Source: Chitinivorax sp. B (lineage in GTDB: Bacteria > Pseudomonadota > Gammaproteobacteria > Burkholderiales > SCOH01). From it: a DNA stretch of 64,000 bases. Under the pieces are notes generated by a model. It saw only the letters and a program-made list of their open reading frames with translations, was not told the origin of the DNA and did not search any database. Below are positions 8,512 through 51,235 of the stretch, piece by piece. The first letter of the stretch is position 1. Every line of letters starts with the position of its first letter. The DNA lies in contig NZ_SCOH01000002.1 in NCBI RefSeq assembly GCF_005503445.1, positions 186,001 to 250,000 of the forward strand, written 5' to 3'. The position numbers were made by a program, and so were the translations under genes.

Positions 8512-8590
8512 ACTACTCCGCGGAAAAAACACGGATGCTAGCGACCAGGCGTGACAAGCACTTGAATACTATGTTGCAGCTTTATTACTG

Positions 8591-8651: not shown

Positions 8652-11600
8652 TCAGACTTGTCGTGCTTTTTTGTGCTCGACGAAACGTTCGATATGACCA
8701 AGCAATTCATCTTCCTGATACGGCTTACCCAGATAGACGTTGACGCCCAACTCATTAGCGTAGTTACGGTGCTTTTCCGCAGTACGTGATGTAATCATGA
8801 TGATTGGAATATGGCGGGTCTTCTCATCGCTTCGAATATGGCGGGTCAATTCAAACCCATCCATCCGAGGCATTTCGATATCGACCAACATCACATCAGG
8901 CATGACGTCCTGAATCTGCTGCAAAGCATCAACACCATCCTTTGCAGTAATCACCTGAAAGCCTTCACGTGCCAGTAAACGGCCCGTAATCTTGCGTACT
9001 GTCAACGAATCATCGACCACCATCACCACTGGAACCATCGACAAGGCATCCGGTTGCGACTGCACCGGTGCTTGTCCTTGGGCCTGCCCTTGTTGCTGGG
9101 CATTCGCAGTCTCAATCCGGTTCAATAGCAACAACGGATTCAGAATCAGAACAATATCGCCGTTACCCAGTACAGTCGCCCCTGCAATACCTGGGACACG
9201 CGCCAGTTGTGGGCCAATGTTCTTAACCACCACTTCCTGGTTACGCATCAGATCATCCACATGCAGCGCAATCCGCTGACTACCACTGCGGAGCAACACG
9301 ATCGTACTGTAACGCTTGGATTCCGGCTGATGTTCTTGGTCTCCCAGTAACCGCGGCAAGTAGGTGAACGGATACTCATTACCCAACCAAGTTGCTTTCT
9401 TCTGTTCGTACAAACGCTCCAGATCGGCCAGTTTAAGTTCCTGTACTTGCTCAACCATCACAGATGGGATGGCATACTTCTTGTTGGCCGCCGTCACCAA
9501 TACCGTTTGGGTTACCGCCAATGTCAACGGCAGGTGAATGGTAAAACGAGTTCCTTTCCCGATCTCCGAATCCAACTGAACACGGCCGCCAAGATCGGAG
9601 ATTTCGTTCTTGACTACGTCCATGCCGATACCACGGCCGGATAGCTGGCTCAGTGCATCAGCAGTGGAGAAGCCTGGCTCGAAGATCAAGTACATGGCTT
9701 CTTCATCACTCAACACCTGATCAGCGGTGATCAGCCCCTTGCTGATGGCTTTTTCGCGAATCTTACCCAAGTTCAAGCCTGCACCATCATCGGCCAGAAT
9801 CAGGACCAATTCGTTACCTTCCTGTTTCAGACTGAGTGAAATCTCACCTACTTCCGGCTTGCCCGCTTCAATCCGTTTTTCCCGGCTTTCAAGGCCATGG
9901 TCAATCGCATTACGCAGCATGTGCTCGAACGGCGAAGTCATCTTCTCCAGCATCGAACGGTCAATTTCCACACGCCCGCCACGGATCTCCAAGTTGACTT
10001 TCTTACCCACTTCCTTACCGGTCTGACGAACGATACGGTACAAACGTTCACTGACACTGGAGAATGGAACCATTCGAATCCGCATCAGTTCCTGCTGTAG
10101 ATCCTTGGTCATACGGCCTTGCTGTAACAGCGCGGCATCGGTTTCATCCAGATTCTTCAGCAGGTTATGTTGAATTGTCGCAACGTCATTCACACTTTCT
10201 GCCATAAAGCGGGTGAGCTCTTGCAAGCGCGTGAATCGATCAAATTCCAACGGATCAAACTCGTTGTCTGTCTGAATATGTGACATGCGGGAGGCCATTT
10301 GCGACTCAGCCTGAATTTCGATCTCCCGCAATTGGGTGCGCAGACGCGTCACGTTATCTGTCAGATCCAGCAGCGATTGCTTCAGGGCCAACATTTCCGC
10401 TTCCATTCGCGACCGGGCGATCGCGACTTCACCAGCCTGGTTTACCAGTCGGTCAACCAGATCAGCACGTACACGCAAGGTACTCTTGGCCGCATCAGCA
10501 TCAACCAGACCCATCGGCATCGCGGGTATTGCCAGATTACCGGCGGCTTGAGATGCTGCCACTACATCAGCCGCAGTCTCTGCTGACGACTTGCCCTGTA
10601 GAATGTCGATCAGCTCGTTCACCTGATCAAGCTGCGACTCTAATTCATCAAAATCGTCACTAGTCGGTGCGGTTTCCTGCAACCCGATGACCTTGGTTTC
10701 AAGGTTATGCGTTGCCTCACCCAGACGCATGGCGCCGGTCATCCGCGCACTACCTTTCAAGGTATGTAACAACCGCTGTAATGCCTTGGACATTTCATAG
10801 GCAGCGGGATCCGTACGCCAATCTCTCATGACTTTACTGATCTGCGGTTGCAGATCGTTCACTTCCTCGATGAAGACCGGCAACAATTGCTCATCGATGT
10901 CATCCTGTACTGAGTAGGTTGCTTCAGCGGTCTCTTCTGCTGGTACAGCATCAAAGCTGGGTACAACCTGTACTGCTGGTGTTACTGGGGACAATATCTC
11001 CACCGGTTCATCAGGTATCACCACGTCTAGAACAGGTTGTTCATCTTCCTGCTCCTGGTCCGCTTGTGGCGCATCAACCTCCAATTCAACATCAGCTATC
11101 ACATTAACCACTGGTGCAGATTCAGAAACCGGTTCAGCTTCAACGGCAGGTTGCTCTGGGAACACGTCCACAGCAGGCAGTTCAATGACAGGTTCATCCA
11201 GATTTACCGAGAGTTCATCGTGAACGACTGGCTCCGACACCGATGCTTCCACTGCAGCAGGGGCAGCTATCTCTTGAGTAACGGAGGGTAGATCCGGGGA
11301 TTCAGCCAGCCCAATTACTGGTAACGTATCCGACGGTTCCATCTCAGCTGGCACTAGCTCAATCGCAGGCAATGCCTCCGGTGGTGTCAGCTCAATCGGC
11401 TCCTCCACCAGATACTGATCTTGATCCAGTGCTTCGACTTCTGGTAAATCGATCGCCAGCAACGCATCTTCTGGCAGATCATCCAAGCCTATAGGTTCGG
11501 TGATGGGCATCCCCGGCTCTAATGGCCCTTGCTCATCCGTATCAAAACTCAGCCCAATTTCATGCTCAGCTATTATGTCCAGCGAAACAGCTGGGCTCTC

Positions 11601-14600
11601 AACAACAGTGTCATCCCATGTCAGTGCTGCTGGTGTAACATCACCAGGCACTGCTTCAAGTGTCGGCAATTCAAAACTGAACCCCTCGTTCACAGGAGCC
11701 GGCGGTGCTTCAACTTCATCCACCAAAGGAACATCACTTGGCGCACGCAGGCGAGTTGCCACCTCGTCCAGCTTTTGCACCAGTTCAGGTGCTGCAGGCG
11801 GTGCCAGCTTGGCATTAATAGTCAAGAACATGACATCAAGCTGCGCAATAGCCTCCGCAAAGGTTTCGATGTCGGCAGAGTCCAGCCGTTCCGGCGCTTT
11901 CATCTGGCCTTGAATGCACAACTCCAAACCATGCCCAAGCTCACCCATATCCTGGAATCCGGCAGTCCGACAAATACCGCATAAGGTATGTGCCGCATGC
12001 AGAAACTGATCCGACACAGCCCGACCCGGATGCTCACGCAACAACGCCTGCTGCTGATTCAAGGTAGAAAGGTAGCGAGCTGCCTCGTTGGTGAAAATGT
12101 CAAACAACACTGACGAAATCACTACATCACCGATATGCAGGTCTACCTCGTCTGGTTCACTGGCCTCTACCGGCTCAGCAGTTACAGGCTCGGTACCAAA
12201 CGAAAGCTCAAACGCAGGCTCCAATATCGACGGCACCTCAGCAGGTGGCACCGCCTCCGCCAAATCCAAGGTTGGCACATCCAGTGATGCTGGCTCCAAC
12301 TCGGCAACAGACTCAAGCGAGGGCAAATCCAGTGCTGCTTCAGGACCGCGAACAGCCGAACTTGGTGCAGGTGGCTCTTCACCAGCTTTCAATGCTTCAG
12401 CCAACTCGAAAATTTCGCTGGCTTCTACCGATGCACTACCCTTGTCACGCAACTCATCAATCCACACGGCAAAGCTGTCATGCGACATATTGACTAGACG
12501 CAATACACCAGCAGTCGCAGGCAAATCATCCTGCAAAACCTTGTTCATGACCTGCTCGACCGACCATGCCACCTCGCCAAGATGGTTCAGGCCAACCATG
12601 CGACCTGATCCCTTCAACGTATGGTAGCTGCGACGAATCACTGTCAGCGCTTCCTTGTCGCGTGGGGACGCAGTAATGATTTCAAGATTGCTGCGGATAT
12701 TGGCCAATACATCCACAGCCTCTTCCAGATACACTTCCAACAGTTCCTGATCAACCGCTTCGTCACTGACAGGTGCCGGTTTAGGCTGAGCTTCTACAAC
12801 GGGCTTTACTTTCTCACCCACCATCTCGCTGACCGTTGCCACCAATGCCTCGATTGGTTTGCCTTCAGCCTCTTTCAACGCAGACAGCGCAGCTGCACTT
12901 TGTTGACCAAGGGCATTGTCAGCAATCAAATCTGCATTTTGCTGCAATGTTTGTAAAGTAGCTTTCAGCTGTTGCTGTGCCGCCTGGTCTTTCGGATTGT
13001 CACGCAACACTTCCAACAACTCTTGCGCTTGCTGTTTCTGCTGGCTGACTTCAGATTCAACGGTTGCTTCTTCAGTTGCTGCCTCGTTGACACTTTCGGT
13101 CTCGCCACGCAATTTACGCAACATCGGACGCAAAATTTCCTGGCGATTGGGTCGGTCGTTCTGTGTGGCTTCTACATAGAAACCCAATGCTGACAATACT
13201 TCTGCCAACAACTCCAGTTCAGCCGGATTCAGCTCCACACCAGCATCTTCATAACGGGCTGTCGTTTCCTGGCTCCACCCCAGCAATTCAGCGGCATCAT
13301 TAAGCTCGGTAATAGCCAACGCGCCTTGAATCTGGCGGAAGTAAGGCTGCAGGCCAGCTAACTCACCGCGTTTGGACGAGTCACGGAAAAACGCGTCTAG
13401 ACCTTGTTCGATATGTTGAAGGTTGACTTGAATCTCATGCATCAGCTGCGATTGCAGCATTTTGGCCTGTGCATCACGCGCCAACTCATCCAGCTGTGGC
13501 AGATCCGGCAATGAAGCATCGATTTTGCCAGTGCGCGCCAACGCATCCAGACGTGCACTCATGGCCTGCAACTGGCCAGGTAGTTCTTGCGGGGGATTCA
13601 CTGGATGCTCACACAACGCATCCAGCAACAGGAATGCCGTTGCAACATCCAACGCAGCAGCTTCAGAAATAGGATTGCCCTGCACTGAATGGACAGCCGC
13701 TTGTAGGTTCTGCAAACAAGGTTGCAATCCGTCCAGATCAAACACCACCGACTTGTTGACCAAACCGGCCAATGAGTCAATCACCAGTGTCAGCTTGTCC
13801 GCCTGACCACCTGCAGCACGCGCCCATGCGTCTTTGGCTTGGGTAAGCAGATCGCGCATGGCACGGGCGGCTTTTTGACGCGCAGCATCCACACTGGATT
13901 CCGGCACATCGTCAGCGGGCATCAATTCGTCAAGCGCAAACGACTGTTTGATCTGACGCAATGTATCGGTTGCTTCGGACGAACGCGCCAGATAGTAAAG
14001 AATATCGCGCTGCAGTCGATCCGCAACGGTTTGCGAACCTTCAGCCAGTCGACGTAACTGAATATTGATACGTGCAAACAATTGCTTGGCAACATAATCA
14101 ATATCAACAGCTTTACTGGCGATGGCTTCCACCAAACCAGCAGCAGTCCACCAGAAAGTACGTTGACGCGGGGATCGCACTGCGGTTTCAATCGCACGTA
14201 AGGTCTGGGCCATGATTAACAGCCCATCTTCTCCCCCCCTCAACCACTTCAGTAAGCCCAGTTCATAACGTGCGCGCTGGGCTTTGACCAGAGCTGGCAA
14301 GTCGCTATCTGCAACTGGTGCTGCATTGGCAGGAAGAGAAAAAGCATCCAAGCTTGGGAAAAACAGATCGCTTGGGGAAACCTTGGTGATACCACGTGCC
14401 AGTTTGATCCTCTCATACTCTGGATAGAGTCTGAGTGGCATGTCCGGCGTACCGTTCATCAGCGCTTCAAGGTAACGCCCACAACCGTCGACAGCCGCCG
14501 CCAATGCATCCAGCACATCAGCGGTCGATTCGGTCTCACCTTTCTCGATGGCGCCAAGTGCCAGTTCCATTTCTTCAGAAACACGCGCCGCGCCATCCAG

Positions 14601-14783
14601 GCCCACCATCTGCAACGCACCGGTAACCTGGTGGAGATGGGTACGGCCGAACTTCAGCTGCGAGGTATCCGCAGGAGATGCCCGGTATTGTTCAAGGCAA
14701 GTTTTGGCTCGCTCCAAGGCCTGGTCAATTTCAGCTTTGACCCAGACCAGCGAGCCGACATCGAATTCGCTATGTACGCGCAT
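8652..14783 (-). CDS. chpA: ChpA/PilL-type hybrid CheA kinase of the twitching chemosensory system
   Basis: A 2043-residue cytoplasmic multidomain histidine kinase. The N-terminus is a PilL-type HPt-like domain (His51). Further HPt modules have the phosphorylatable His at 721 (SYHTLKGSGR), 932 (AAHTLCGICR, a divergent motif) and 1340 (LLHTLKGSAR). A long acidic, Pro/Val-rich linker covers about 1010-1290. Then come the dimerisation and HATPase domains (HMLRNAIDHGLE; GRGIGMDVVK), a CheW-like domain and a C-terminal receiver (Asp1968 in MLVDIEMPRMDG). It phosphorylates PilG and PilH to control type IV pilus extension and retraction. It is the last gene of pilGHIJ-chpA and starts 15 bases after pilJ. 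It is shorter than Pseudomonas ChpA, which has more transfer domains. Confidence 0.95.
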   Translation of the reverse strand: MRVHSEFDVGSLVWVKAEIDQALERAKTCLEQYRASPADTSQLKFGRTHLHQVTGALQMVGLDGAARVSEEMELALGAIEKGETESTADVLDALAAAVDGCGRYLEALMNGTPDMPLRLYPEYERIKLARGITKVSPSDLFFPSLDAFSLPANAAPVADSDLPALVKAQRARYELGLLKWLRGGEDGLLIMAQTLRAIETAVRSPRQRTFWWTAAGLVEAIASKAVDIDYVAKQLFARINIQLRRLAEGSQTVADRLQRDILYYLARSSEATDTLRQIKQSFALDELMPADDVPESSVDAARQKAARAMRDLLTQAKDAWARAAGGQADKLTLVIDSLAGLVNKSVVFDLDGLQPCLQNLQAAVHSVQGNPISEAAALDVATAFLLLDALCEHPVNPPQELPGQLQAMSARLDALARTGKIDASLPDLPQLDELARDAQAKMLQSQLMHEIQVNLQHIEQGLDAFFRDSSKRGELAGLQPYFRQIQGALAITELNDAAELLGWSQETTARYEDAGVELNPAELELLAEVLSALGFYVEATQNDRPNRQEILRPMLRKLRGETESVNEAATEEATVESEVSQQKQQAQELLEVLRDNPKDQAAQQQLKATLQTLQQNADLIADNALGQQSAAALSALKEAEGKPIEALVATVSEMVGEKVKPVVEAQPKPAPVSDEAVDQELLEVYLEEAVDVLANIRSNLEIITASPRDKEALTVIRRSYHTLKGSGRMVGLNHLGEVAWSVEQVMNKVLQDDLPATAGVLRLVNMSHDSFAVWIDELRDKGSASVEASEIFELAEALKAGEEPPAPSSAVRGPEAALDLPSLESVAELEPASLDVPTLDLAEAVPPAEVPSILEPAFELSFGTEPVTAEPVEASEPDEVDLHIGDVVISSVLFDIFTNEAARYLSTLNQQQALLREHPGRAVSDQFLHAAHTLCGICRTAGFQDMGELGHGLELCIQGQMKAPERLDSADIETFAEAIAQLDVMFLTINAKLAPPAAPELVQKLDEVATRLRAPSDVPLVDEVEAPPAPVNEGFSFELPTLEAVPGDVTPAALTWDDTVVESPAVSLDIIAEHEIGLSFDTDEQGPLEPGMPITEPIGLDDLPEDALLAIDLPEVEALDQDQYLVEEPIELTPPEALPAIELVPAEMEPSDTLPVIGLAESPDLPSVTQEIAAPAAVEASVSEPVVHDELSVNLDEPVIELPAVDVFPEQPAVEAEPVSESAPVVNVIADVELEVDAPQADQEQEDEQPVLDVVIPDEPVEILSPVTPAVQVVPSFDAVPAEETAEATYSVQDDIDEQLLPVFIEEVNDLQPQISKVMRDWRTDPAAYEMSKALQRLLHTLKGSARMTGAMRLGEATHNLETKVIGLQETAPTSDDFDELESQLDQVNELIDILQGKSSAETAADVVAASQAAGNLAIPAMPMGLVDADAAKSTLRVRADLVDRLVNQAGEVAIARSRMEAEMLALKQSLLDLTDNVTRLRTQLREIEIQAESQMASRMSHIQTDNEFDPLEFDRFTRLQELTRFMAESVNDVATIQHNLLKNLDETDAALLQQGRMTKDLQQELMRIRMVPFSSVSERLYRIVRQTGKEVGKKVNLEIRGGRVEIDRSMLEKMTSPFEHMLRNAIDHGLESREKRIEAGKPEVGEISLSLKQEGNELVLILADDGAGLNLGKIREKAISKGLITADQVLSDEEAMYLIFEPGFSTADALSQLSGRGIGMDVVKNEISDLGGRVQLDSEIGKGTRFTIHLPLTLAVTQTVLVTAANKKYAIPSVMVEQVQELKLADLERLYEQKKATWLGNEYPFTYLPRLLGDQEHQPESKRYSTIVLLRSGSQRIALHVDDLMRNQEVVVKNIGPQLARVPGIAGATVLGNGDIVLILNPLLLLNRIETANAQQQGQAQGQAPVQSQPDALSMVPVVMVVDDSLTVRKITGRLLAREGFQVITAKDGVDALQQIQDVMPDVMLVDIEMPRMDGFELTRHIRSDEKTRHIPIIMITSRTAEKHRNYANELGVNVYLGKPYQEDELLGHIERFVEHKKARQV

Positions 14784-14798
14784 GAGGCGGCCCGATTT

Positions 14799-16970
14799 TT
14801 ATGAGAGTTTAAAGCCGGCTACGGAACCTTTCAGTTCTGCCGCCAGACCCGTCAACTGACCGATCTGTACAGCGGTCTGTTTGGTACCGGCAGTGGTCTG
14901 CTCGGTAATGTTCAAGATGTCCGTCATCGAATGGGATACATCATCCGCCATCTTCGACTGCTCCTGGGTTGCGCCGGAAATGCGTTGAATCAGCGATGCC
15001 AGATCGCGCGATACCTGACGAATCTCCAACAAAGCCTGACCCGCCGCATCAGACAGCTTCGCACCTTCAACTACACCCTGGGTGGATACTTCCATCGCCG
15101 CTACCGCATCGTGGGTATCGCTCTGAATGGTCTTCACAATCGCGCCGATCTGCTTGGTCGCTTCAGCAGAACGTTCCGCCAGTCGTTGTACTTCTTCTGC
15201 AACCACAGTAAAGCCTCGACCTGCTTCACCGGCCGACGCGGCCTGAATCGCCGCGTTCAGCGCCAGTACGTTGGTCTGTTCGGTAATATCGGAAATCAGT
15301 TCAACGATTTCGCCAATTTCCTGTGAGCTTTCACCCAGTCGCTTAATCCGTTTCGCAGTCTCTTGGATCTGTTCACGAATTTCGTTCATACCCTTAATTG
15401 AGTTATCCACCGCCTGCGTACCTTTTTCCGCAGCTTGCAGCGATTGCTCCGCCACTCGGGCTGACTCGGAAGCAGTATCTGCTACGTCCGAAATCGACTG
15501 TGCCATTTCCTGTACACGGTTGTTGGCAGTCACAATTTCGGTCGACTGGCGTTGTGCAGCATCCAGCAGTTCATTCGAAATCGACTGCGCTTGCGCCGCA
15601 GCGCTTGTTACCTGCTCGGTAGCCTTGTTAATACCGATAATCAGCGAACGGAGTTCGTCAATCGTATAGTTCATGGAATCAGCGATCGCCCCGGTCAGGT
15701 CTTCCGTCACCGACGCACGTACGGTCAAGTCACCATCCGCCAAGTCCGACATTTCATTCAGCAATCGCAGAATCGCTTCCTGGTTCCGTTTGTTTTCACG
15801 TTCAGATTCCAGACGACGTCGCTGTGCTTCGGCCGCGTTCACACTACCCAACATTACCAACGACGCTACCGCGCCCATGCCAAATAGGGCAATCAGTGCG
15901 TAGGTAAGTGCGCTGCCACCTTGCAACTGATATGCATCCGCTAGCTTCTGGGAGTCTTTCAGCAGGTTTTCACTCTCGGCAAAGATCGTCTGGTTAGCCA
16001 AACGGGTGTTCACCAAGTTCTGCATGTTTCGGGAGAAGGTACTGACCACCGTTTCAAAGTCTTTGAAGAGTTTCTTGATCTCTTCAAGCTTCTCACGGGT
16101 CTCAAGATGTTTCACCGGGGTCAGCCGTAATTCCTCACTACCGTCCAGCATACCTTGCAATGTGTCACGGAAAGTGTTGGCATCCTTACCCAGCAGAAAC
16201 ACCACTTCCGGGTTAATGATCTCACCCGCCAACATGGCGTTGGCGTTTTTCGCCATACGCTGCGTCAACACTACCATCTGTTCGGCCAATTCGCGATCGT
16301 GTTCAGGTGCGTTGGTTTCTTTCAGCAGTGAAACCAATTGCTGTGTTGCTTCCAGCAGCTTCGCATCATTGGCATTGATTGAGCTTACGCTCTTGGTAAT
16401 CGTAACGATGGTCTGCTTGTTGTTCAGAATCGTTTCAACAGTTGGCGTACGCGGGTTAGGTAGAAAACTTGATTGCCATACTTTCTGAATCGAATTCAGG
16501 AAAGTGACCGGTGCACCCGTCGATTTGGGTACTGCATCACCACCATCACGCAGTAATGACAAGTTTTGACCAAACTGGGTGTAAGACTCTTTCAGCGTGT
16601 CAAACGCTTTCTCGTTACCTTGGATCGCTTGCGCTGCCGCACGTGCCATCCGTTGCGACAACATCTGCATCTCGGTAGAGGTTGCACGACGGATTGAATT
16701 ATGGTTTGACGAACGGATGTCCCACAATACCAGCGCACCAGCACATGCCAGACACACCACAATACCGGTGGTGAAAATGGTTGACTGACGACGAGTTGGC
16801 AAATGGCCAATCAACGGTAGCGGTGCCGGCATGTCGGAATCGCTTGTAGTACGAAGCTTTTCGATGATGGAGACAGTCTTGGACGGATCGAACGGGCGAT
16901 CGCCGCTACCATCGCCGCCACGGCCAGTCAACTTGCCGAACAGATTTTTAATGTTGTCGGATAACGCCAT
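14799..16970 (-). CDS. pilJ: Type IV pilus chemoreceptor PilJ
   Basis: A 723-residue methyl-accepting protein that senses surface-related signals and feeds the ChpA kinase. A cytoplasmic leader of about 60 residues precedes the first membrane helix (about 63-84). A helical periplasmic PilJ-type sensor (repeats with [10 protein letters not shown] and [10 protein letters not shown]) leads to a second helix near 355-378, then HAMP and a signalling domain with the tip [17 protein letters not shown]. The tip differs from the classical [12 protein letters not shown], as is usual for PilJ. It is translated between pilI and chpA. No pilK methyltransferase or chpB methylesterase gene is present beside it. 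Confidence 0.95.
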
Positions 16971-37330: not shown

Positions 37331-37547
37331 GTTGGTATCTCCACGTTTTGCATTGGTCGCATGTATTGACCATGCATTACAGCTTCGACCCAATTCCCCA
37401 GAAAAATTCCTTGATCGGCATACCTGACATTGATCGAACATATCATTGACCAGAATAGGGCTGATCTGGTCAATACATCAACACATCACCAGATAGAGTT
37501 AATATTCTAGTAAAATCCATTACTCTTGCGTTCCATGAGACTTGGTC

Positions 37548-38561
37548 ATGTTCAACCTACGTTTCGGCTCGTTACTTGCCTGTGTTCTAATCACGTCAGT
37601 TCACGCTGAAACACCTGTCAACCATTTTGACACCCCACCCATTCATGATGCGTTGCACCTGAAAAATCAACGGCCGGTTGCAAGTGCGACATCACGAGAG
37701 TTAGGGGAACATGGTCAAACCATCATTACGGTATTGATTAGACGGGACGGTACTTTGCAGGATGCCAAGATCAAGCAATCATCAGGCTTTCCACGACTGG
37801 ACAATCTGTCATTGGACACGGTCAAGGTCTGGAAATTTGAACCAGGCAGGCGTGATGGCGTACCTGTTGTTGCATCGGTCGACATCCCGTTCGATTTCCC
37901 ACCCGGTGATACGGCCAACAGCATCATTGTTGCTAACGTTAGCTCTCGTAAAGATGCGCCAGAGCTCTGTGGCCACCACTTTCCGAACCCTGATAAATGG
38001 CTGCCACTGAAATCGGAACAACCTCCGGTCAATGACTATCCCAAGACGATTCAGGACCGCGCCATTCCCATCAATCGCTGGGATAAGGAATTCGATTTCG
38101 ATAGCGGGACTAGCCCTTATCTGGCTTTCGAGCTCCCACGTTATGAAATGCCTTACAAAATCAAAGTCACCAGCGTACCTAGTCCCAAGCTGTTCTACCC
38201 GATTTTTGCTTTGCTTGATCGGCAGAAACGCGTAACCCGGTGTATTGCCACAGGCCATCAGTTCATCACCGGCAATTGGTCACGCCATCCCAACTACGTG
38301 ATCGAACTGCCTATTGACCGAGATTCCCGCCGGGATCGCTACCTGATCGTTTTTACAACGGCATTTCAGGCAAATAACGTCGTAACAGACAAAGAGAGCT
38401 ATACGTTAGCAAGTGTGGTGAATAACTATATACTAGCAATGCTGGGTGCAAAACCGGGCGATCCCCCGCCGATTCCGCATGGCTACTATGGCATGCTGCG
38501 TCTTGAAGAAAAGCCGTTGAATATCACAAAGAAACCGGTCGCAGATAGGCATGCACACTAG
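37548..38561 (+). CDS. Secreted TonB-C-terminal/MalM-like fusion protein
   Basis: A 337-residue exported protein (signal MFNLRFGSLLACVLITSVHA). Residues about 40-125 match a TonB C-terminal domain (TVLIRRDGTLQDAKIKQSSG, VKVWKFEPGRRDGVPV, VDIPFDF). The remainder (about 140-320) contains a beta-rich region with FELPRYEMPYKIKVTS and DRQKRVTRCI, reminiscent of the maltose-operon protein MalM. There is no N-terminal TonB anchor helix beyond the cleavable signal, so it is unlikely to energise outer-membrane transport in the ordinary way. ATG 37548 is preferred to the TTG two codons upstream; the ribosome-binding site is weak. Function unknown. Confidence 0.7.
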   Translation: MFNLRFGSLLACVLITSVHAETPVNHFDTPPIHDALHLKNQRPVASATSRELGEHGQTIITVLIRRDGTLQDAKIKQSSGFPRLDNLSLDTVKVWKFEPGRRDGVPVVASVDIPFDFPPGDTANSIIVANVSSRKDAPELCGHHFPNPDKWLPLKSEQPPVNDYPKTIQDRAIPINRWDKEFDFDSGTSPYLAFELPRYEMPYKIKVTSVPSPKLFYPIFALLDRQKRVTRCIATGHQFITGNWSRHPNYVIELPIDRDSRRDRYLIVFTTAFQANNVVTDKESYTLASVVNNYILAMLGAKPGDPPPIPHGYYGMLRLEEKPLNITKKPVADRHAH

Positions 38562-43009: not shown

Positions 43010-43666
43010 ATGAAAATCTTGGTGATCGATGACCATCACCTTTTCCGGGAAGGCTTGCGCTACATGCTGCAGAGTCTCGACCAACAGGTGGACGTCACGC
43101 AATGCGGGAGCGTTGAGGAAGCGGAAGATCTGGCGGATGAGCGGCAGGATATCGACGTCATACTGCTGGATATGAAGCTGCCAGGTAAGTGCGAGATCGA
43201 CGCAGTCAATGCAGTGCACAACGCTTTCCCCGATGCCCGCTTGGTTGTGCTGTCAGGCGAAACCTCGCCGGATCTGGTCAATATGGCAATTGGTGCAGGC
43301 GCAATGGGTTATATCCCCAAAACGACCAGCCCGGATGTCATGTTGAGTGCACTGCGCCTGATTCTGGCCAACGGCATTTATCTGCCGGCCGATATCTTGT
43401 TGGCTGCCCGCGTCAGTCAGCCGATACCGGAAATTATCGACCATGACATTGAACCGCACTTCTCGCTGGATGAGCTATCTGACCGTCAGCGTGAGGTGTT
43501 GCGCCTGCTGATTCACGGTGCACCCAACAAGCGCATTGCCACTGAACTAGATATTGGCGAAGCCACCGTCAAGTCACATTTGACTGCGGTCTTCAAGGCA
43601 CTGGGCGCGCGCAATCGGACAGAAGCTGTTTATGCTGCAGCCCGGGCAGGCATTCGCTTCGAATAA
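43010..43666 (+). CDS. NarL/LuxR-family response regulator
   Basis: A 218-residue two-component regulator. The receiver has Asp9/Asp10 (VIDDHHLFREG), phosphoacceptor Asp54 (ILLDMKLPG) and a conserved Lys (YIPKTTSPD). The C-terminal HTH is LuxR type: LSDRQREVLRLLIHGAPNKR and IATELDIGEATVKSHLTAVF. It probably binds DNA as a phosphorylated dimer. The convergent hybrid histidine kinase (43852-45675) is the likely partner by proximity. A cluster of GTCGGA inverted repeats upstream (42885-42925) could be its own operator. Confidence 0.93.
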   Translation: MKILVIDDHHLFREGLRYMLQSLDQQVDVTQCGSVEEAEDLADERQDIDVILLDMKLPGKCEIDAVNAVHNAFPDARLVVLSGETSPDLVNMAIGAGAMGYIPKTTSPDVMLSALRLILANGIYLPADILLAARVSQPIPEIIDHDIEPHFSLDELSDRQREVLRLLIHGAPNKRIATELDIGEATVKSHLTAVFKALGARNRTEAVYAAARAGIRFE

Positions 43667-43851: not shown

Positions 43852-45675
43852 CTATTGGGTACTGATCAGCCAATTGGACAGCACATCGGCTGGTACGGGC
43901 TTCTGGAATACTGGTACTTCTGGCAACGCACTGGTTGGAGTCCAGTTGGCTTCACTTTCACCGGTGATAATGGACGATGGCAAATCTTCGTAAAGCTGTC
44001 GCAACGAAATGATGGCATCAAAACCATTGAAGCCATCGGCAAGCCGAAAGTCTGTAATCAGCGCATCAGGGCGGATATCAGTTCCCTGCAATGCCTCTAC
44101 CGCCGCAGATGCCGATTCATACACCAACGACCGGCAGCCCCACGATTCAAGCAAGCTATGCATGGCAATCCGGCCACGCGAATCGTCTTCGATGACCACC
44201 ACCGTCATGCCACGCAAACCTTCCGTGGATTCAACCGTAGGCAACGCTTCAGGAATGACCGGCTGTGCTATTCGCCCAAGCGGCATACTCACCGAGATCG
44301 TAGTACCTTTACCAGGCTTCGAATCCAACATCAAACGGTGGTCCAGCAGATCACAAAGACGACGCACGATCGACAGGCCAAGCCCAGCGCCCTTTTCCGA
44401 ATCCCGCGAAGGGTTATGCAATTGGTAGAACTCGTCAAATACAAATGGTTGGTCTTGTTCACGAATACCAATACCAGTATCGCTGATGGATACAATGATT
44501 TCGTGCTCTTGACGTTTGACTCTGACAGTCACACCACCGGCAGCTGTGTACTTGATGGCATTGTCGACCAGATTACGCAATACCCGTTCGATCAGGAAGG
44601 GGTCCGTCACAGCCACAACATCATCCGCTTCGAGCTTCAGCGACAACTGTTTGGCAGCTGCTTTGGGTTGGTACTCGCTAACGATATTTTCGACCAATGG
44701 CTTGACCCGGGTTGCCACCCAGTTGGCTTGTACCGCACCTGCATCAAGCCTGGACAAATCAAGCAACCCGCTAAACAACCGATTAAGCGAATCGGCGGAA
44801 TGACGGATATGCTGAACAAAGATCTGACGCTGTTCGGTCGACGCCGTATCCAACAGACCAGAGAACAGCACCAATGCATGCAATGGTTGCCGCAAATCAT
44901 GGCTGGCTGCAGCCAGAAAGCGGGTTTTCATCAAATTGGCCTGTTCGGCCTGCCTTAATGCGGATTCAGCGTTTTGTTTCTCTTGCTCCAAGCGTTTGAC
45001 CAGTTCCAGATTTTCATAGCGCATCCGCAAACTGGCATCGAATTCATCCTTGATCTGGCGGGAAAATCTCACCAAGGTTGCCAACAGCCCCAACAGTACC
45101 ACACCAATCGGCAAACCAGATGGCCCCAGACCGAACCAGAATATGGCTGCCGAGACCAGATTGATGGTTGCACCTACAGTAAACGTAGGCGGATGGGTCG
45201 ACATATTGACCAAGGCAGCCACCGCGTAGACGCACTGGAGAATGGTCACCAGGAAGATGGCCGTGTAATCGGTAGCACCCACACCAATCCACCAGATACC
45301 GCTACCAACAATCATTGCATTCAAGGCGACGAAGAGCAGCAGACTGCGTTGTGCAAGCACAATCTCGCGTTCATCACCATGTTCAATTCGATCCAACCAA
45401 TGACGGCAGGTCCCTGGTACAAACACCCAGACTACTGCCAACGGCACTATCCATGCGCATACACGCCACCAAGGCACCATCGTGGAAAACACCCCGATGA
45501 TGACTGCACCAGTCAGCACAATCGTTGGACGCATCAGCATGATCTGGCTGGCCCTCAATCGCACCGACTCACGGGCAGCCTCAACTGCAACCCGACCTCG
45601 TTGTGCAAGCCGCTGGGCCAGCAGTGCCGGGCTGATCAGCATGCCAAGACCTGATCTCTCGATATGACTAGACAT
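43852..45675 (-). CDS. Hybrid membrane histidine kinase with C-terminal receiver
   Basis: A 607-residue sensor kinase. About six hydrophobic segments fill residues 50-190 with no large periplasmic loop, suggesting a membrane-buried or membrane-proximal sensor. A coiled coil leads to the HisKA motif (AAASHDLRQPLHAL; His259), then the HATPase domain (NLVDNAIKYTA, ISDTGIGI, GAGLGLSIVRRL) and a receiver with Asp542 (LITDFRLADG). The HDLRQPLHA type often pairs with LuxR-type regulators such as the one convergent here. ATG 45675 was kept as the longest; ATG 45642 has an AGG upstream and is possible. Only 37 bases separate it from the divergent trifunctional gene. The input signal is unknown. Confidence 0.92.
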   Translation of the reverse strand: MSSHIERSGLGMLISPALLAQRLAQRGRVAVEAARESVRLRASQIMLMRPTIVLTGAVIIGVFSTMVPWWRVCAWIVPLAVVWVFVPGTCRHWLDRIEHGDEREIVLAQRSLLLFVALNAMIVGSGIWWIGVGATDYTAIFLVTILQCVYAVAALVNMSTHPPTFTVGATINLVSAAIFWFGLGPSGLPIGVVLLGLLATLVRFSRQIKDEFDASLRMRYENLELVKRLEQEKQNAESALRQAEQANLMKTRFLAAASHDLRQPLHALVLFSGLLDTASTEQRQIFVQHIRHSADSLNRLFSGLLDLSRLDAGAVQANWVATRVKPLVENIVSEYQPKAAAKQLSLKLEADDVVAVTDPFLIERVLRNLVDNAIKYTAAGGVTVRVKRQEHEIIVSISDTGIGIREQDQPFVFDEFYQLHNPSRDSEKGAGLGLSIVRRLCDLLDHRLMLDSKPGKGTTISVSMPLGRIAQPVIPEALPTVESTEGLRGMTVVVIEDDSRGRIAMHSLLESWGCRSLVYESASAAVEALQGTDIRPDALITDFRLADGFNGFDAIISLRQLYEDLPSSIITGESEANWTPTSALPEVPVFQKPVPADVLSNWLISTQ

Positions 45676-45712
45676 GCCACATCACACATTCATTCGCAGG
45701 GGAGACGTCATC

Positions 45713-48700
45713 ATGGCTCGCAATGAGTTTGTCAGTACAAGTATATATGCAATCAATGCCGCTCATCGCCTTGCCTCGCCGGTAGAAAGCTTGTTACAAG
45801 CCAAGCGGCCATTGTATTGCGATGTACTGATTGTCGGTAGTGGTTATGGTGGATCATTTGCGGCTATGGAACTGGCTGCTACCGGGCAATCGGTGTGGGT
45901 CATGGAGAAAGGACGTGAATATGCCTTGGGGGAATTCCCCGAAACACTGGGCGATTTGCCGGGCCATGTTCAGTATCACCAGCAGGCATCCCGACCTGTG
46001 GTTGGCAATCCAGACGCATTGTTTTCATTACAGGTTGGCAAGCATGTGACGGTAGTTACTGGCTGTGGGTTGGGTGGTACGTCGCTGATCAATGCCAGTG
46101 TGGCGCTAACGCCGCCTGATCGGGTATTTCAGGATGAACGCTGGCCACGTGCGTTACGTGCAGATCTGACTAATCTAAAAACGTGTTTTGCGGATGCCCA
46201 CCACTTGCTGGGGACCGTGGAATGGACCGTTGCTGGCCAGACAAGCAAGTATCGCGCGTTACAGCAATTGGCCAAGGCGATTCCAGGTAGTCATTGTCAA
46301 CCACTCACCCTGGCTATTGCACCTGGCCATCAGGAAAGCACCGCTGGCATGATGCAGGCCAAATGCACTCAATGCGGAAATTGTGTGACCGGCTGCAATG
46401 TTGGTGCGAAGAATACGCTGCCGATGAACGTGATTCCGCTGGCTTGCCAGGCTGGTGCCCGCTTTTATACCGGTGCAACCGCACAAACCATTCGCCCGGC
46501 AAGGGCAAGTGATCAATATGGTTTAGCAAATGGTGCTCAATGGGTAGTCCAGTTTGCCCGGACGGCGACACTGAAATGCGAGGAAGGTCCCGATGAGTTT
46601 GAGATTGTTGCGAAGACCGTGATCCTGGCTGGCGGCAGTCTGGGCAGCACGGAAATCCTGCTGCGATCACAGACTGCCAACACGACTTTTTCCAAACAAC
46701 TGGGGCGACATTTTTCAGGTAATGGAGATTTCCTCGCATTCGGCTATGCCCAACGCCGTGCTGTCAATGCATTTGGGCACAGTCAGCTGTCTTCTACGCA
46801 ATTGCAGCAGATTGGCCCGACTGCAGTCGGCATGATCCGCGCAGTTGATCCTGCAATCAGCCCATTAGGGCGATACATCATCGAAGACGGTGCAATCCCT
46901 AGTGTACTTGGCCAAATACTGGGCCCTATACTGGCGAACGCGTCGTTGCTGCAGCGGTTCATCAGCGATCAACAACCTGCTTGGTTCGCTCAACACGCCA
47001 ATGTGGACCCATTGACGGTACATGAGTCGGTATTGGCACATACCCAGGTACTACTGTGTATGGGACAAGACAGCGCCGACGGTGAACTATATCTGGGGCA
47101 GCAAGGCATTGATATCGAATGGCCCACCGCGCCGCGACATAGCAGCATCCAACAGTTGCACCACGTTTTGACACAGGCACACCTGAATGGTGGGATGGAT
47201 GGTGGAGACTATTTGCCCAATCCACAGTGGCGTAATGTACCAGAAGCCTTTGAGCAGATTGTTGGCCAATCCACCACTGGTAGCCTTGTTACTGCCCACC
47301 CGCTTGGCGGATGCGCGATGGGCAACAACGCCACGCTAGGTGTGGTGGACCATTTGGGTCGCGTGTTTGATGGCGCCGACCACGCAGGCCTGCAGTTACA
47401 TCAAGGCCTGTATGTACTGGACAGCGCGATTTTACCCTGCCCGGTCGAGGTCAATCCGTTCATCACTCTGTCTGGCGTGGTACTTCGTGCCGTCCGCATA
47501 CTGACGGGTCAAACCTATGCAGCCCGCGCCATTCACCCGCCACGCCAACCCTATCGCACATGTATACCTACAGCATCACCCCATGTTCCAGTGCTCCTTT
47601 CGTTGCGTGAAACCTTGTTCAACCTCACGCCCATCCTGCTTCCTCCTGACTGGCGGGGCGCAGTACTGGCAGCCCGCACATTTGACCAATTGCAACAACA
47701 TGCCACAGGGTTGATAGCGCAGATACAGATTGAACTCGATATGCTAGCGTGGCTGGCCAATCCATCCATCGCGCTCCCGGCTACCATCACACTTCATTGT
47801 CCAGCTCAAACAAGCACAAGACGAGGCAAAACGGTAGGTGACGGGCCAATCACTGCACCAGCCCTGTTCTCAGGCCACGGGACAGTACGCTTGCTGGCGC
47901 TGGATGAACCAATCGATGGCAAACAAGCCAAGGCACGTACTGATCAAGCATTGGCTGCTTTTTTGAAACGGCGCGGGTTACGCGATCTCTTTCTGGCTCC
48001 CGGCCAACAGACCATGCGATCACGCTTGCGCAGCTTTCTGCGCATCGCCCGTATCCACAGTCAATGGCGACGAATGGACTATCGATTCACTTTGCTGCCC
48101 ATCCAGGCTGGGCATGGCAGCCCGCTGATGTTTTCTGGCTTCAAACAGTTAGCCTATCAATCACAAGCCAAAAACCCTTGGACCTCATTACAACAACTGC
48201 AAGTGACTTTAACCGCACCGGGAATCACAGGACAGGTCTCGATCAGCTTACAAGTGGATGTGTTAAGGATGCTGCGTCAACATGCGCTCCAGGTCACAGC
48301 AGCACGTAATACACCGGTTGCAATGTCAGCTTTGTTGCAGGCTAGCCATCTGTTGATGCGAATAATGTTCGCCACCCATTTTTGGACATTCAGAGGATTA
48401 CGCTACCGTGCGCTCCGATCAAGCCATCCCGCTCGTATCCAGTCGTTACTATTACGCAATGGACAACACATCGATCCCGTTCGCCATACCTTGCATGTGC
48501 CCCGACAAGCTGGCGATGACACCTCACTACCGCTTTCACTGACATGTTATCTACCCGCTTCACGCCATCCCTTACACCCCCCCATTTTGCTGACCCATGG
48601 CCTGGCCCATGGTGGCGAAATTTTCACAACCCATCATAGCCCCTGCGCCATGGCAGCGTGGTTTGCAGAACAAGGACGCGTAGTTTGGGTATTTGATCAT

Positions 48701-51235
48701 CGCTATTCGAACCGGACAATGGGAGTGGGGCAATTGGCAGGCTCGCTTGATGAGCTGGCACAATTTGATCTCCCAGCTGCAGTCCGTTTTGTATATGAGC
48801 AACACGAAAGCCAACCAATTGACCTGTTTGCCCATTGTATTGGCGCGGCTGGCGTGACCATGGCTGTCCTCAATGGGAGGATATGGGATACATGCAAACA
48901 ACAATCCATGATTGGCAAATTGGCACTACATGCGGTTCCACCCTGGCCACAACCTTCCACAGGCAATCGCATCATGGCGGCGTTGTTACAGTATGTGGAT
49001 GAGTTGCTAGGGGCATGGACCTTACAGGCTAGCCCGGGCAGACACCCCGAACAACTGGATCAATGGATCGATCGTTTGGCTGAGTCACTACCATTACCCG
49101 ATAGCGAGCAACGCCCAAACCGTCCAACTAGCGGCGATGCATTGACCGGCTATGCAACTGCGAATCGGATGGCATTGTTCTATGGCCATCAATGGCGTCA
49201 ATCCAATCTGACCCCCGCACTACTGACCGCACTACCGCGCATGATGGGGCCGTTGCATCTCGACGTGATCCGTCACATGTTGCAAATTACCGAACGAGGC
49301 ATGCTGCTTGATCGGTTTGGCAATCCTTGTTACTTACAGACTCCGCGCTTTGCCGAGTATTGGACATTCCCCACGTTACTGGTACATGGCCTGGATAACC
49401 AAGTATTCGATGCGCAGGCCAGCATACACAGTGCGCTTGCACTACATCGAATACTGCCGAAAGGACGATCGGTACAGCTGCTTGCCATTCCGCAAGTGGG
49501 GCATCTGGATTTGGTATTTGGCAAACATGCGGCGCAGCCCTATCAACCCCATCTCTCGGGTAGTGGCGTATTTCCAGCGTTACAGCAATTCTTCGACGGA
49601 CAACCACTGTCCATCCCACTGCGCCGCTTAGCTTGGCAACAATTGAAACAGCATGGTAAACAAACGCCACCGCTGGAGCACGTGACCGGCCCGAGCTTTC
49701 ACTATCGAATTCATGCGGGACGCCAGCTTGAACTGATTAGTTGCATTGAGCAGACCACACTGGCAGCAACCCCACCTATCCCACCTCGCTTGCGTGGTGC
49801 TCAGCACAATGGACGTGTCTATGACTACACAGCAGCTTGGGCGCCAACTGTCATACTGCCTGGACAATACTGGCTACTGACTACGCGTGTAGACCCGCTA
49901 CATCCACCAGTCTCCTTGCAAATTGGTTTACGGCGACGCAAATTGCCAAGGCACCCAGCAGGTAACAAGTCTGACCAATGGGTACAGATCCCATTGCATG
50001 GTATGCCCTGGTTCACTCGCTTGATTGGTTATCTGCAAGGCAAACCTCCACGACAATGGCGAATCCTAGCAGCTTCATGCCGATGGCCAGGAACCCCGTT
50101 TGAGCGCGAGGCAGTAGACCGGATCTTCGCCGCCATGCTGCAGTTAGCACAACAAGCGCCCGGTGTAGATGGCCTGTGGCTGTTAGGCGACCAGATCTAT
50201 GCCAACGCAGGGGCAGACGTGCTTCGCTACCGAGAACACAGTGACCGTTACGCTCGGCGCTACCGGGAAGCCTTTGGAGATGGCCAATTGGGCCTGGAGC
50301 AATTGGCCTCCCCTCACTTTGCCGCCCTACTGCGTAGCATCCCAACCTGGATGGTGATTGATGATCATGAATTGGAGGACAACTGGCCCGGTCGAGACAA
50401 AGGCCAACCGTTCAATGTTCAGGAACGACAGGCAATGGCGGCTGTACTGGCATATCAGCATCGCCAGCTTGGTTGTGAAATCGGGCCACCACCACCACTG
50501 GAACAAGTGCGTTATTGGCACGCATTTGAAGTGTGTGGGCTGCCAGCTTTTGCAATCGACACGCGTAGTGAACGTGAGCGCCGACACCGCACCACCTGGC
50601 CACGAGCCCGATTACTGGGACAAACACAGTTTCACGCATTGACCACTTGGCTAGAGGAACAACAACGTATCGCTCCTGATCGACCCAAGCTGATTTTGTC
50701 CGGTAGCGTATTTGGGTTTCCGCGCCGCCACGAAGTTGATTTTCCGGCAACCTGCGTGGATGCAGACCACTGGCAGGGTTACCCGCGTACTTGGCGGGCC
50801 TTGGTTCGCTTCATCGTAAGCCGACAAATCACTCATGTCATATTTGTTTGCGGTGATCTCCATGCCGCAGCTGTAGCCAACCTGACCTTACGTTTTGGTC
50901 GCCATTCTCCGGTTCGGGCACACACTGTTGTGTTGTCCGGGTTAAATGCCACACTGCCGTTCGCCAATGCCCGTCAGCATCAATTCATGTTAGATATGCC
51001 GGTCAGACTCCCCATGAGTAATCAAACCGTCAGTGTCGATAGTACCTTGCATTGGCTGACAGATGCATATAGACAGTTTGGTTGCATTGATGTTTGCCAG
51101 GATACAAGAGGTTGGCAAGTCACCATCTCCATACGCGACCCAATGGGTGTCAAACTGGCTGAAACGCGTTTGTATGATCGGGTTGCTCAAGCGCTAGCCG
51201 GGCAGCTTACAAGCGATGTGCCCGTATCAGCGTAG
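45713..51235 (+). CDS. Trifunctional fusion: GMC oxidoreductase, alpha/beta hydrolase, PhoD-like phosphatase
   Basis: An 1840-residue protein with three enzyme modules. Residues 1-600: GMC flavoprotein, with a G42-x-G-x-G dinucleotide motif (LIVGSGYGG), a four-Cys segment (C218-TQC-GNC-VTGC228), His529 (AHPLGGCAMG) and Asn581 (NPFITL) in place for catalysis, resembling cholesterol-oxidase-like enzymes. About 620-900: a region I cannot identify. About 905-1285: alpha/beta hydrolase with nucleophile Cys1042 (FAHCIGAAG), acid Asp1228 and His1264. About 1450-1770: PhoD-like metallophosphatase (D1493 in GDQIYA, DDHELEDNW at 1550, GDLHAAA at 1714). No signal peptide is visible. I chose ATG 45713 because GGGGAG precedes it; the earlier ATG (45674) has none. 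Likely role: sequential attack on a lipid or sterol-type ester or phosphate. The stop overlaps the convergent tsaC-like gene. Confidence 0.85.
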   Translation: MARNEFVSTSIYAINAAHRLASPVESLLQAKRPLYCDVLIVGSGYGGSFAAMELAATGQSVWVMEKGREYALGEFPETLGDLPGHVQYHQQASRPVVGNPDALFSLQVGKHVTVVTGCGLGGTSLINASVALTPPDRVFQDERWPRALRADLTNLKTCFADAHHLLGTVEWTVAGQTSKYRALQQLAKAIPGSHCQPLTLAIAPGHQESTAGMMQAKCTQCGNCVTGCNVGAKNTLPMNVIPLACQAGARFYTGATAQTIRPARASDQYGLANGAQWVVQFARTATLKCEEGPDEFEIVAKTVILAGGSLGSTEILLRSQTANTTFSKQLGRHFSGNGDFLAFGYAQRRAVNAFGHSQLSSTQLQQIGPTAVGMIRAVDPAISPLGRYIIEDGAIPSVLGQILGPILANASLLQRFISDQQPAWFAQHANVDPLTVHESVLAHTQVLLCMGQDSADGELYLGQQGIDIEWPTAPRHSSIQQLHHVLTQAHLNGGMDGGDYLPNPQWRNVPEAFEQIVGQSTTGSLVTAHPLGGCAMGNNATLGVVDHLGRVFDGADHAGLQLHQGLYVLDSAILPCPVEVNPFITLSGVVLRAVRILTGQTYAARAIHPPRQPYRTCIPTASPHVPVLLSLRETLFNLTPILLPPDWRGAVLAARTFDQLQQHATGLIAQIQIELDMLAWLANPSIALPATITLHCPAQTSTRRGKTVGDGPITAPALFSGHGTVRLLALDEPIDGKQAKARTDQALAAFLKRRGLRDLFLAPGQQTMRSRLRSFLRIARIHSQWRRMDYRFTLLPIQAGHGSPLMFSGFKQLAYQSQAKNPWTSLQQLQVTLTAPGITGQVSISLQVDVLRMLRQHALQVTAARNTPVAMSALLQASHLLMRIMFATHFWTFRGLRYRALRSSHPARIQSLLLRNGQHIDPVRHTLHVPRQAGDDTSLPLSLTCYLPASRHPLHPPILLTHGLAHGGEIFTTHHSPCAMAAWFAEQGRVVWVFDHRYSNRTMGVGQLAGSLDELAQFDLPAAVRFVYEQHESQPIDLFAHCIGAAGVTMAVLNGRIWDTCKQQSMIGKLALHAVPPWPQPSTGNRIMAALLQYVDELLGAWTLQASPGRHPEQLDQWIDRLAESLPLPDSEQRPNRPTSGDALTGYATANRMALFYGHQWRQSNLTPALLTALPRMMGPLHLDVIRHMLQITERGMLLDRFGNPCYLQTPRFAEYWTFPTLLVHGLDNQVFDAQASIHSALALHRILPKGRSVQLLAIPQVGHLDLVFGKHAAQPYQPHLSGSGVFPALQQFFDGQPLSIPLRRLAWQQLKQHGKQTPPLEHVTGPSFHYRIHAGRQLELISCIEQTTLAATPPIPPRLRGAQHNGRVYDYTAAWAPTVILPGQYWLLTTRVDPLHPPVSLQIGLRRRKLPRHPAGNKSDQWVQIPLHGMPWFTRLIGYLQGKPPRQWRILAASCRWPGTPFEREAVDRIFAAMLQLAQQAPGVDGLWLLGDQIYANAGADVLRYREHSDRYARRYREAFGDGQLGLEQLASPHFAALLRSIPTWMVIDDHELEDNWPGRDKGQPFNVQERQAMAAVLAYQHRQLGCEIGPPPPLEQVRYWHAFEVCGLPAFAIDTRSERERRHRTTWPRARLLGQTQFHALTTWLEEQQRIAPDRPKLILSGSVFGFPRRHEVDFPATCVDADHWQGYPRTWRALVRFIVSRQITHVIFVCGDLHAAAVANLTLRFGRHSPVRAHTVVLSGLNATLPFANARQHQFMLDMPVRLPMSNQTVSVDSTLHWLTDAYRQFGCIDVCQDTRGWQVTISIRDPMGVKLAETRLYDRVAQALAGQLTSDVPVSA

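Follow-up and report, generated by a model that had tools for sequence, protein, structure and literature searches.

In the accessible part of its description (PMC4223295), the PhoD family is presented as extracytoplasmic and Ca-dependent; loss of C180, D207, D265, D266, N271, N272 or D436 abolished or strongly reduced the activity of Bacillus subtilis PhoD, and the other exemplar of the family is a phospholipase D. The flavin adenine dinucleotide (FAD) glucose dehydrogenase of Burkholderia cepacia (BcGDH) carries a loop, residues 212-222, in which three cysteines hold a 3Fe-4S cluster relaying electrons from the FAD (available part of PMC6719666). GMC oxidoreductases and PhoD are both mentioned in PMC12542777 and PMC5371717, but, in the portions available, for separate things. 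Here we describe a gene of Chitinivorax sp. B that joins a GMC flavoprotein, a cysteine-type alpha/beta hydrolase and a PhoD-type phosphoesterase in one chain; it lies in a stretch of 64,000 bp (the window; positions 186,001 to 250,000 of contig NZ_SCOH01000002.1, assembly GCF_005503445.1). We know of no case in which these three enzyme families work jointly. No description of the three-module architecture, and no characterised example, was found in the open full-text literature searched, and an earlier description is possible.

The features of the gene are as follows (window coordinates; aa, amino acids; alignments A2, A3 and A5 are described below, and A4, A6 and A7 were small, hand-picked sets):

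45713..51235, + strand: GMC, conserved domain, Cys hydrolase and PhoD fusion, 1840 aa (open reading frame, Pfam)
45818..47527, + strand: GMC flavoprotein module, aa 36-605 (FAD motif GSGYGG at aa 42-47; His529 and Asn581 in 16/16 rows)
46364..46396, + strand: ferredoxin-like Cys loop C218-x2-C221-G-x-C224-x3-C228 (alignment, pattern, profile)
47528..48502, + strand: unnamed conserved domain, approximately aa 606-930 (alignment, predicted model)
48518..49612, + strand: acid-lipase-fold alpha/beta hydrolase module, aa 936-1300 (Pfam, predicted model, fold search)
48836..48838, + strand: predicted nucleophile Cys1042 in AHCxGA (Cys in 61/61 rows)
49397..49399, + strand: Asn1229 at the catalytic-acid position (alignments)
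49502..49504, + strand: predicted catalytic His1264 in GHxD (His in 61/61 rows)
49673..49987, + strand: beta-rich domain ahead of the PhoD catalytic core, approximately aa 1321-1425 (DSSP of the predicted model)
50048..51187, + strand: PhoD-type metallophosphoesterase, approximately aa 1446-1825 (Pfam, predicted model, alignment)

The gene is a single stop-free frame of 1840 codons. An in-frame ATG upstream at 45674 would give a protein of 1853 aa, and the start at 45713 was preferred because of the GGGAG at 45700-45704. Pfam placed GMC_oxred_N at residues 109-333, GMC_oxred_C at 513-586, Abhydrolase_1 at 956-1269 and PhoD at 1471-1754, all above the curated cut-offs. The G + C content is even around the gene without anomaly, and a compositional island was therefore rejected. 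An initial annotation, made from the letters of the window, had claimed three complete modules with intact motifs in this frame; the modules themselves, Cys1042 and the histidine hold up, but the acid position of the hydrolase does not. The four-Cys loop (residues 218-228) and the two-component genes at 43010-43666 (+) and 43852-45675 (-) were absent from that annotation.

The fusion is a real and recurring combination. A profile search of genome contigs, based on an alignment of ten relatives, yielded at least 566 confirmed stretches, from which the best 80 loci were taken and their modules called by hidden Markov models; these are the top loci by similarity to the window protein, a ranking that favours the architecture of the window. 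A single frame carries all three modules in 29 of these loci, and in another 14 the GMC-hydrolase gene was accompanied by PhoD as a gene of its own. GMC-hydrolase alone was found in 22 loci, one of which (L076) stops at its contig end, separate GMC and hydrolase genes in seven, and GMC alone in eight; separate GMC and hydrolase genes were seen in Bacteroidota loci. L134 is a contig fragment. In L140, a triple locus from a metagenome-assembled genome labelled Nitrospirae, the GMC module is divided over two frames; the other triple loci that have a taxon label belong to Pseudomonadota.

Within the order, 25 of 399 genomes (including that of the window) gave a match at E <= 1e-15. Fourteen of these were opened, the remaining eleven having a GMC match alone in the search. 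The triple fusion was present in six of the 14 (the window, G058, G341, G175, G120 and G209), PhoD was the next gene in two (G099 and G237, weak in G237), and four (G254, G017, G101 and G019) showed GMC-hydrolase with no PhoD in the stretch read; in G025 GMC and hydrolase occupy separate frames, and in G270 the locus is broken over two contigs. At the level of the class 17 of 369 genomes matched (own genome included), and G556 and G540 also carry the three modules on one frame.

That an assembly error or frameshift had joined separate genes deserves practically no credence. Versions with separate genes do exist, but colinear, full-length single frames recur in many genomes, there is no stop inside the frame, and the window gene lies within a contig of 253 kb. 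In addition, Ensifer sp. PDNC004 has a single RefSeq coding sequence of 5727 bp (1908 aa) in which the GMC module, the middle domain, the hydrolase and PhoD are all found with no stop.

The hydrolase module was compared in alignment A2, which contains 60 of 65 usable relatives and the window (61 rows; L076, L120, L123, L134 and L137 left out). Cys1042, proposed in the initial annotation as the nucleophile where Ser is usual, and His1264 are invariant. The "full acid" of that annotation did not survive: the acid position is occupied by Asn1229 (Asn in 59 rows, Ser in two), and the adjacent Asp1228 is Asp in only 19 of the 61 rows and was rejected as catalytic acid since it is not conserved. When aligned by MAFFT with polyhydroxyalkanoate (PHA) synthases (three of four candidates, L167 left out), an Asp stood opposite Asn1229 in 3/3, with Cys and His in register. 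HMMER likewise put an Asp of dog gastric lipase opposite Asn1229, in a weak stretch (i-Evalue 3.8, not significant alone). We take these aspartates to be the catalytic acids of the PHA synthases and gastric lipase. HMMER also set AHCxG against GHSQG of acid lipases and GYCIG of PhaC, and GHxD against NHLD/EHLD of acid lipases. The predicted model of residues 596-1303 (mean predicted local distance difference test, pLDDT, 88.1; predicted template modelling score 0.89) matched lysosomal acid lipase 6v7n best, with Z 33.1 and a root-mean-square deviation (rmsd) of 3.1 over 333 aligned residues of a 369-residue chain, followed by gastric lipases (Z 32.1 and 31.4) and then PhaC (Z 26.2). Because the Asn1229 column aligns with the Asp of all three PHA synthases, the predicted triad is, by alignment, Cys1042-His1264-Asn1229 on an acid-lipase fold. 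The module also matched PHA synthases in sequence, but PhaC_N (PF07167) was not among the 18 Pfam families found for the fusion at E up to 1.

The GMC module passed the Pfam cut-offs for PF00732 (44.5 bits, cut-off 23) and PF05199 (36.1 bits, cut-off 24.6). His529 and Asn581, invariant in the 16 aligned rows, are presumably the GMC active-site His and the His/Asn pair. Among solved sequences, cholesterol oxidases come nearest (E 2.4e-44), followed by the FAD glucose dehydrogenase 6a2u (E 7.6e-18). With the cholesterol oxidase equivalog NF058674, however, the module scored only 146 of the required 850 bits, and five relatives scored 116 to 161 bits. Cys218, Cys221, Cys224 and Cys228 are Cys in 16/16 aligned rows, and of the 81 main GMC frames (the window and the 80 loci) 78 have the strict four-Cys pattern; L090 has a variant that keeps the fourth Cys and differs in a spacing residue. 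A profile of the loop region matched 4Fe-4S proteins (best E 5.6e-4). This short profile found ferredoxins and did not list BcGDH, so that a BcGDH-like loop by direct alignment was rejected and the parallel with BcGDH rests on the published enzyme (PMC6719666, available part) and the overall alignment. The loop suggests export of electrons from the GMC module through a putative Fe-S cluster.

The PhoD module scored 76.8 bits with PF09423 (cut-off 27). Its predicted model (pLDDT 83.8) matched PhoD phosphodiesterase 2yeq with E 4.6e-16, 13% identity and template modelling scores of 0.46-0.48; over the whole two-domain model the superposition is loose (rmsd 12.5, 601 columns). A second match was acid sphingomyelinase (E 3.2e-6). 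The putative metal ligands are C1456, D1493, Y1496, D1550, D1551, D1556, N1557, D1715 and H1717. D207, D265, D266, N272 and D436 of B. subtilis PhoD align with D1493, D1550, D1551, N1557 and D1715 (residues as given in the available part of PMC4223295), and for C180 we infer C1456 as the equivalent from its position and invariance. In alignment A3 (39 of 43 relatives and the window, 40 rows; L088, L095, L107 and L134 left out) the equivalents of the seven B. subtilis residues are kept in 38 to 40 rows, except 1556 and 1557; position 1557 is Asn in 32 rows and Asp in six. The metal ligands are largely kept. By simple hydropathy, the 1853-aa form has no hydrophobic N-terminus (best mean 0.8 for 19-residue stretches that start within residues 1-30); as no signal peptide is seen, the PhoD module is probably cytoplasmic, and a GMC module with a Cys loop would also indicate the cytoplasm. 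The same genome contains two adjacent PhoD genes of ordinary size (contig C24, 71847-75194).

Between GMC and hydrolase, the initial annotation had noted an unassigned region of roughly 280 residues. The region exists and is somewhat longer, about 320 residues. It also forms the C-terminus of GMC proteins of about 780 aa in Bacteroidota and Myxococcota, and it therefore belongs with the GMC unit. In alignment A5 (50 of 78 relatives and the window, 51 rows) Glu31, Tyr188 and Lys209 (A5 numbering) are invariant. A Pfam scan of the 51 rows found no family in more than two of them, and a sequence search of the PDB gave no match at E up to 10; on these sequence searches, membership of a known family was rejected, although the domain may have a known fold. 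A relation to the acetoacetate-decarboxylase-like neighbour found at some loci was also rejected, as none was found. The predicted model is mixed alpha/beta with a long final helix, and 18 of 29 ten-residue blocks have pLDDT >= 90. Its role is probably to bind substrate or to keep the modules in one assembly.

A tree of the GMC domain (88 rows, quick IQ-TREE, root not inferred) was made without the fragments L134 and L140, L066 and L109 (duplicates of L048 and L060), and L050, L051 and L061. One branch, with a Shimodaira-Hasegawa-like approximate likelihood ratio support of 100, separates 42 rows without fused PhoD from the other 46. Presence or absence of PhoD required four changes on the tree, which we read as the main split, L055 and L104 (separate PhoD neighbours within the PhoD-free clade) and L076 (contig end). 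Fused versus split PhoD required six changes among the PhoD-bearing rows. Nearly every PhoD-bearing row thus falls on the same side of this strongly supported branch, and the pattern is compatible with one main origin of the PhoD association, with fusion or fission several times.

Two regulatory genes lie beside the fusion in the window:

43852..45675, - strand: divergent hybrid sensor histidine kinase, 607 aa, approximately five hydrophobic segments (adjoins the fusion gene)
43010..43666, + strand: LuxR-type response regulator (beyond the kinase)

The kinase/receiver half is nearest to NahK/ErcS (NF041832, 297 bits, below the cut-off of 400), and the regulator is nearest to the ErdR, MadR and NarL models, all below cut-off. 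The kinase was counted in 90 loci (the window, nine loci of the order and the best 80; L055 and L104 counted as PhoD-free by clade). A hybrid kinase within 700 bp of the modules was present at 37 of 47 PhoD-bearing loci versus one of 43 PhoD-free loci, that one being L076 at its contig end; at nine further PhoD-free loci a kinase lies 0.7-2 kb away. The background is seven such kinases in 1157 kb of flanks beyond 2 kb. In four alphaproteobacterial loci (L073, L075, L080 and L086) a divergent protein of about 1345 aa, on the opposite strand upstream, takes the place of the kinase; the one scanned (L073) has cyclase and AAA domains.

A phosphatase link to the GMC-hydrolase pair, as the initial annotation had it, is thus seen outside the fusion as well, both in the 14 loci with a separate PhoD and in 13 loci of the PhoD-free clade that have a protein of about 600 aa near the GMC gene (12 directly upstream; in L114 downstream on the other strand). 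Two of these proteins were scanned and are calcineurin-like, that of L111 above and that of L089 below the Pfam cut-off, and the Azospirillum neighbour is labelled metallophosphoesterase by RefSeq. That the metallophosphoesterase neighbour is itself a PhoD was rejected, the match being weak only (hhalign probability 31). Because PhoD is fused or separate and calcineurin-like neighbours also occur, a phosphoesterase is tied to the pair in several ways. In Paraburkholderia, the neighbours (ABC transporter, GntR regulators, GlcD-like oxidase, cytochrome bd) suggested no clear function. At L111 (6687-15073) and similar Bacteroidota loci, a row of genes comprises a separate Cys hydrolase, an acetoacetate-decarboxylase-like protein, two small hydrophobic proteins, a patatin, a calcineurin-like phosphoesterase and GMC; this unfused version could reveal the pathway.

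From the computed architecture, motifs, folds of two modules, alternation of fused and split forms, regulator association and a pattern compatible with one main origin, we infer the substrate, the sequence of reactions, the presence of an Fe-S cluster, the kinase control and all catalysis of a working model. It describes a cytoplasmic protein whose three enzymes would process, step by step, an amphipathic, lipid-like phospho- or acyl-ester, and which would be made under a membrane-sensing two-component system of its own. We put this model forward tentatively, at somewhat below an even chance. At the PhoD-type metal site, a phosphate or head group would be cleaved off; an acyl group would be loaded as a thioester onto Cys1042 of the acid-lipase-fold module and then hydrolysed or transferred; and the GMC flavoprotein would oxidise the alcohol so released, handing electrons by way of the four-Cys loop (probably Fe-S) to a partner and not chiefly to O2. 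The middle domain would bind substrate or serve as a scaffold for the modules, and the neighbouring kinase would control expression of the fusion. A more far-reaching version, in which Fe-S-coupled GMC, unnamed domain, Cys-His-Asn acyl enzyme and cytoplasmic PhoD form a self-contained lipid machine whose lipid is itself the signal of the kinase, we regard as rather unlikely.

The Cys nucleophile in every row, PhaC as the next fold after the acid lipases and the sequence matches to PHA synthases would suit a middle module that is mainly an acyltransferase or a polyester/wax-type synthase, with Cys1042 passing the acyl group to an alcohol or coenzyme A (CoA) and the GMC and PhoD modules preparing the acceptor. 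In Rhizobium leguminosarum, one GMC-hydrolase gene has as neighbours phaC, phaE and the genes of an iron alcohol dehydrogenase and a CoA-transferase. This neighbourhood was seen once, however, the acid is Asn where PhaC has Asp, PhaC_N was not listed for the fusion, and the best fold match is a hydrolase, all of which makes a synthase unlikely. A PHA link as such was rejected, being found on one plasmid only. The PHA synthase genes on that plasmid, beside the GMC-hydrolase fusion (L158, 1309-12297), are class III, and the window genome has three PhaC_N matches above cut-off. Less probable again is an enzyme for sterols or steryl esters, in which an esterase would free the sterol, GMC would make the ketone and PhoD would remove a phosphate. 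The cholesterol oxidases nearest to the GMC module, and the gastric lipase and lysosomal acid lipase/cholesteryl ester hydrolase nearest to the hydrolase, speak for it; the 146 bits against 850 with the equivalog and the spread of the relatives over several phyla speak against it. To our knowledge, the phyla holding the relatives are mostly not known for sterols. In the window genome, nothing matched one hopene-cyclase model above cut-off, and there were only partial matches, below cut-off, to one KstD model; for each model none of 14 control genomes passed and there was no positive control.

The stepwise processing of a lipid, sterol ester or phosphoester suggested in the initial annotation thus stands in part: a lipid-like substrate fits the cholesterol-oxidase-type GMC, the acid-lipase fold and PhoD, but a sterol or sterol ester in particular is not supported. 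It is also conceivable, at about the same low likelihood as a synthase, that each module has a substrate of its own, the only reason for the fusion being joint expression in a single stress or lipid-turnover response. The repeated changes between fused and split forms indicate that covalent linkage is dispensable, and separate GMC and hydrolase genes in Bacteroidota point the same way; but the tie of phosphoesterase, hydrolase and GMC in several arrangements suggests one pathway.

Several observations weigh against the working model of a cytoplasmic, kinase-controlled lipid-processing protein. The fusion was not seen in any of the four genomes examined from the genus and family of Chitinivorax sp. 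B, and is therefore accessory. N271 of B. subtilis PhoD corresponds to D1556 in the window (Asp in 34 and Asn in five of the 40 rows), and several PhoD ligands are lost in one of the 40. A cytoplasmic PhoD is unusual, and the module may use other metals or be inactive. The four-Cys pattern was not found in L070 and L072 among the 81 GMC frames scanned, and its spacing in the window differs from that of the 3Fe-4S enzyme BcGDH (available part of PMC6719666). Finally, ten of the 47 PhoD-bearing loci have no nearby kinase, seven of them with enough flank to show one; L067, L070 and L134 are short of flank, five are alphaproteobacterial, and L071 and L110 showed none.

If the model is true, three enzyme families are tied into one regulated pathway, mostly in Pseudomonadota. 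An alpha/beta hydrolase family with a Cys nucleophile would have its triad Asp replaced by Asn in nearly every member, and a conserved domain without a Pfam family would be gained. There would also be a function to seek for genes whose sole RefSeq label is "alpha/beta fold hydrolase".

Elsewhere in the window, 6031-8532 (-) encodes another phosphoesterase fusion, an 833-aa protein with glycerophosphodiester phosphodiesterase and phytase-like esterase domains. A 2043-aa Hpt/HATPase/CheW/receiver protein at 8652-14783 (-) adjoins a PilJ-type chemoreceptor at 14799-16970 (-), and the pair (8652-16970) is probably a type IV pilus chemosensory system. At 37542-38561 (+), TonB C-terminal and MalM domains are present in one chain.

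Compared with known systems, the hydrolase module matches the fold of lysosomal acid and gastric lipases (6v7n, 1k8q, 1hlg) along the greater part of its domain (Z 31 to 33), and their nucleophile and HLD motifs align with it; where these lipases (LIPA/LIPF) have Ser-His-Asp, however, it has Cys for Ser and Asn for Asp. With PhaC (9knl, 6k3c, 5xav) it has in common a Cys nucleophile in a lipase-box-like motif and the fold (Z 24 to 26), but the acid is Asp in 3/3 PhaC and Asn in the window, and PhaC_N was not listed for the window protein. The GMC module resembles cholesterol oxidase of the GMC type (1b4v, 1coy) in family, FAD motif and invariant His/Asn pair, and differs from it in the four-Cys loop, the low equivalog score and the extra fused domains. 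BcGDH (6a2u) is also a GMC enzyme with a Cys cluster in a loop (available part of PMC6719666). Unlike the fusion as described here, it functions together with gamma and heme subunits. NahK/ErcS kinases and ErdR/NarL regulators are the nearest models to the kinase/receiver half and the regulator, but the window kinase falls below the NahK/ErcS cut-off, has a membrane-type N-terminus and has the fusion as its partner. With PhoD phosphodiesterase (2yeq), the C-terminal phosphoesterase shares PF09423, the fold match and the metal-ligand pattern; unlike 2yeq, it has no visible signal peptide, carries Asp at the position of N271 and is the C-terminal module of a fusion.

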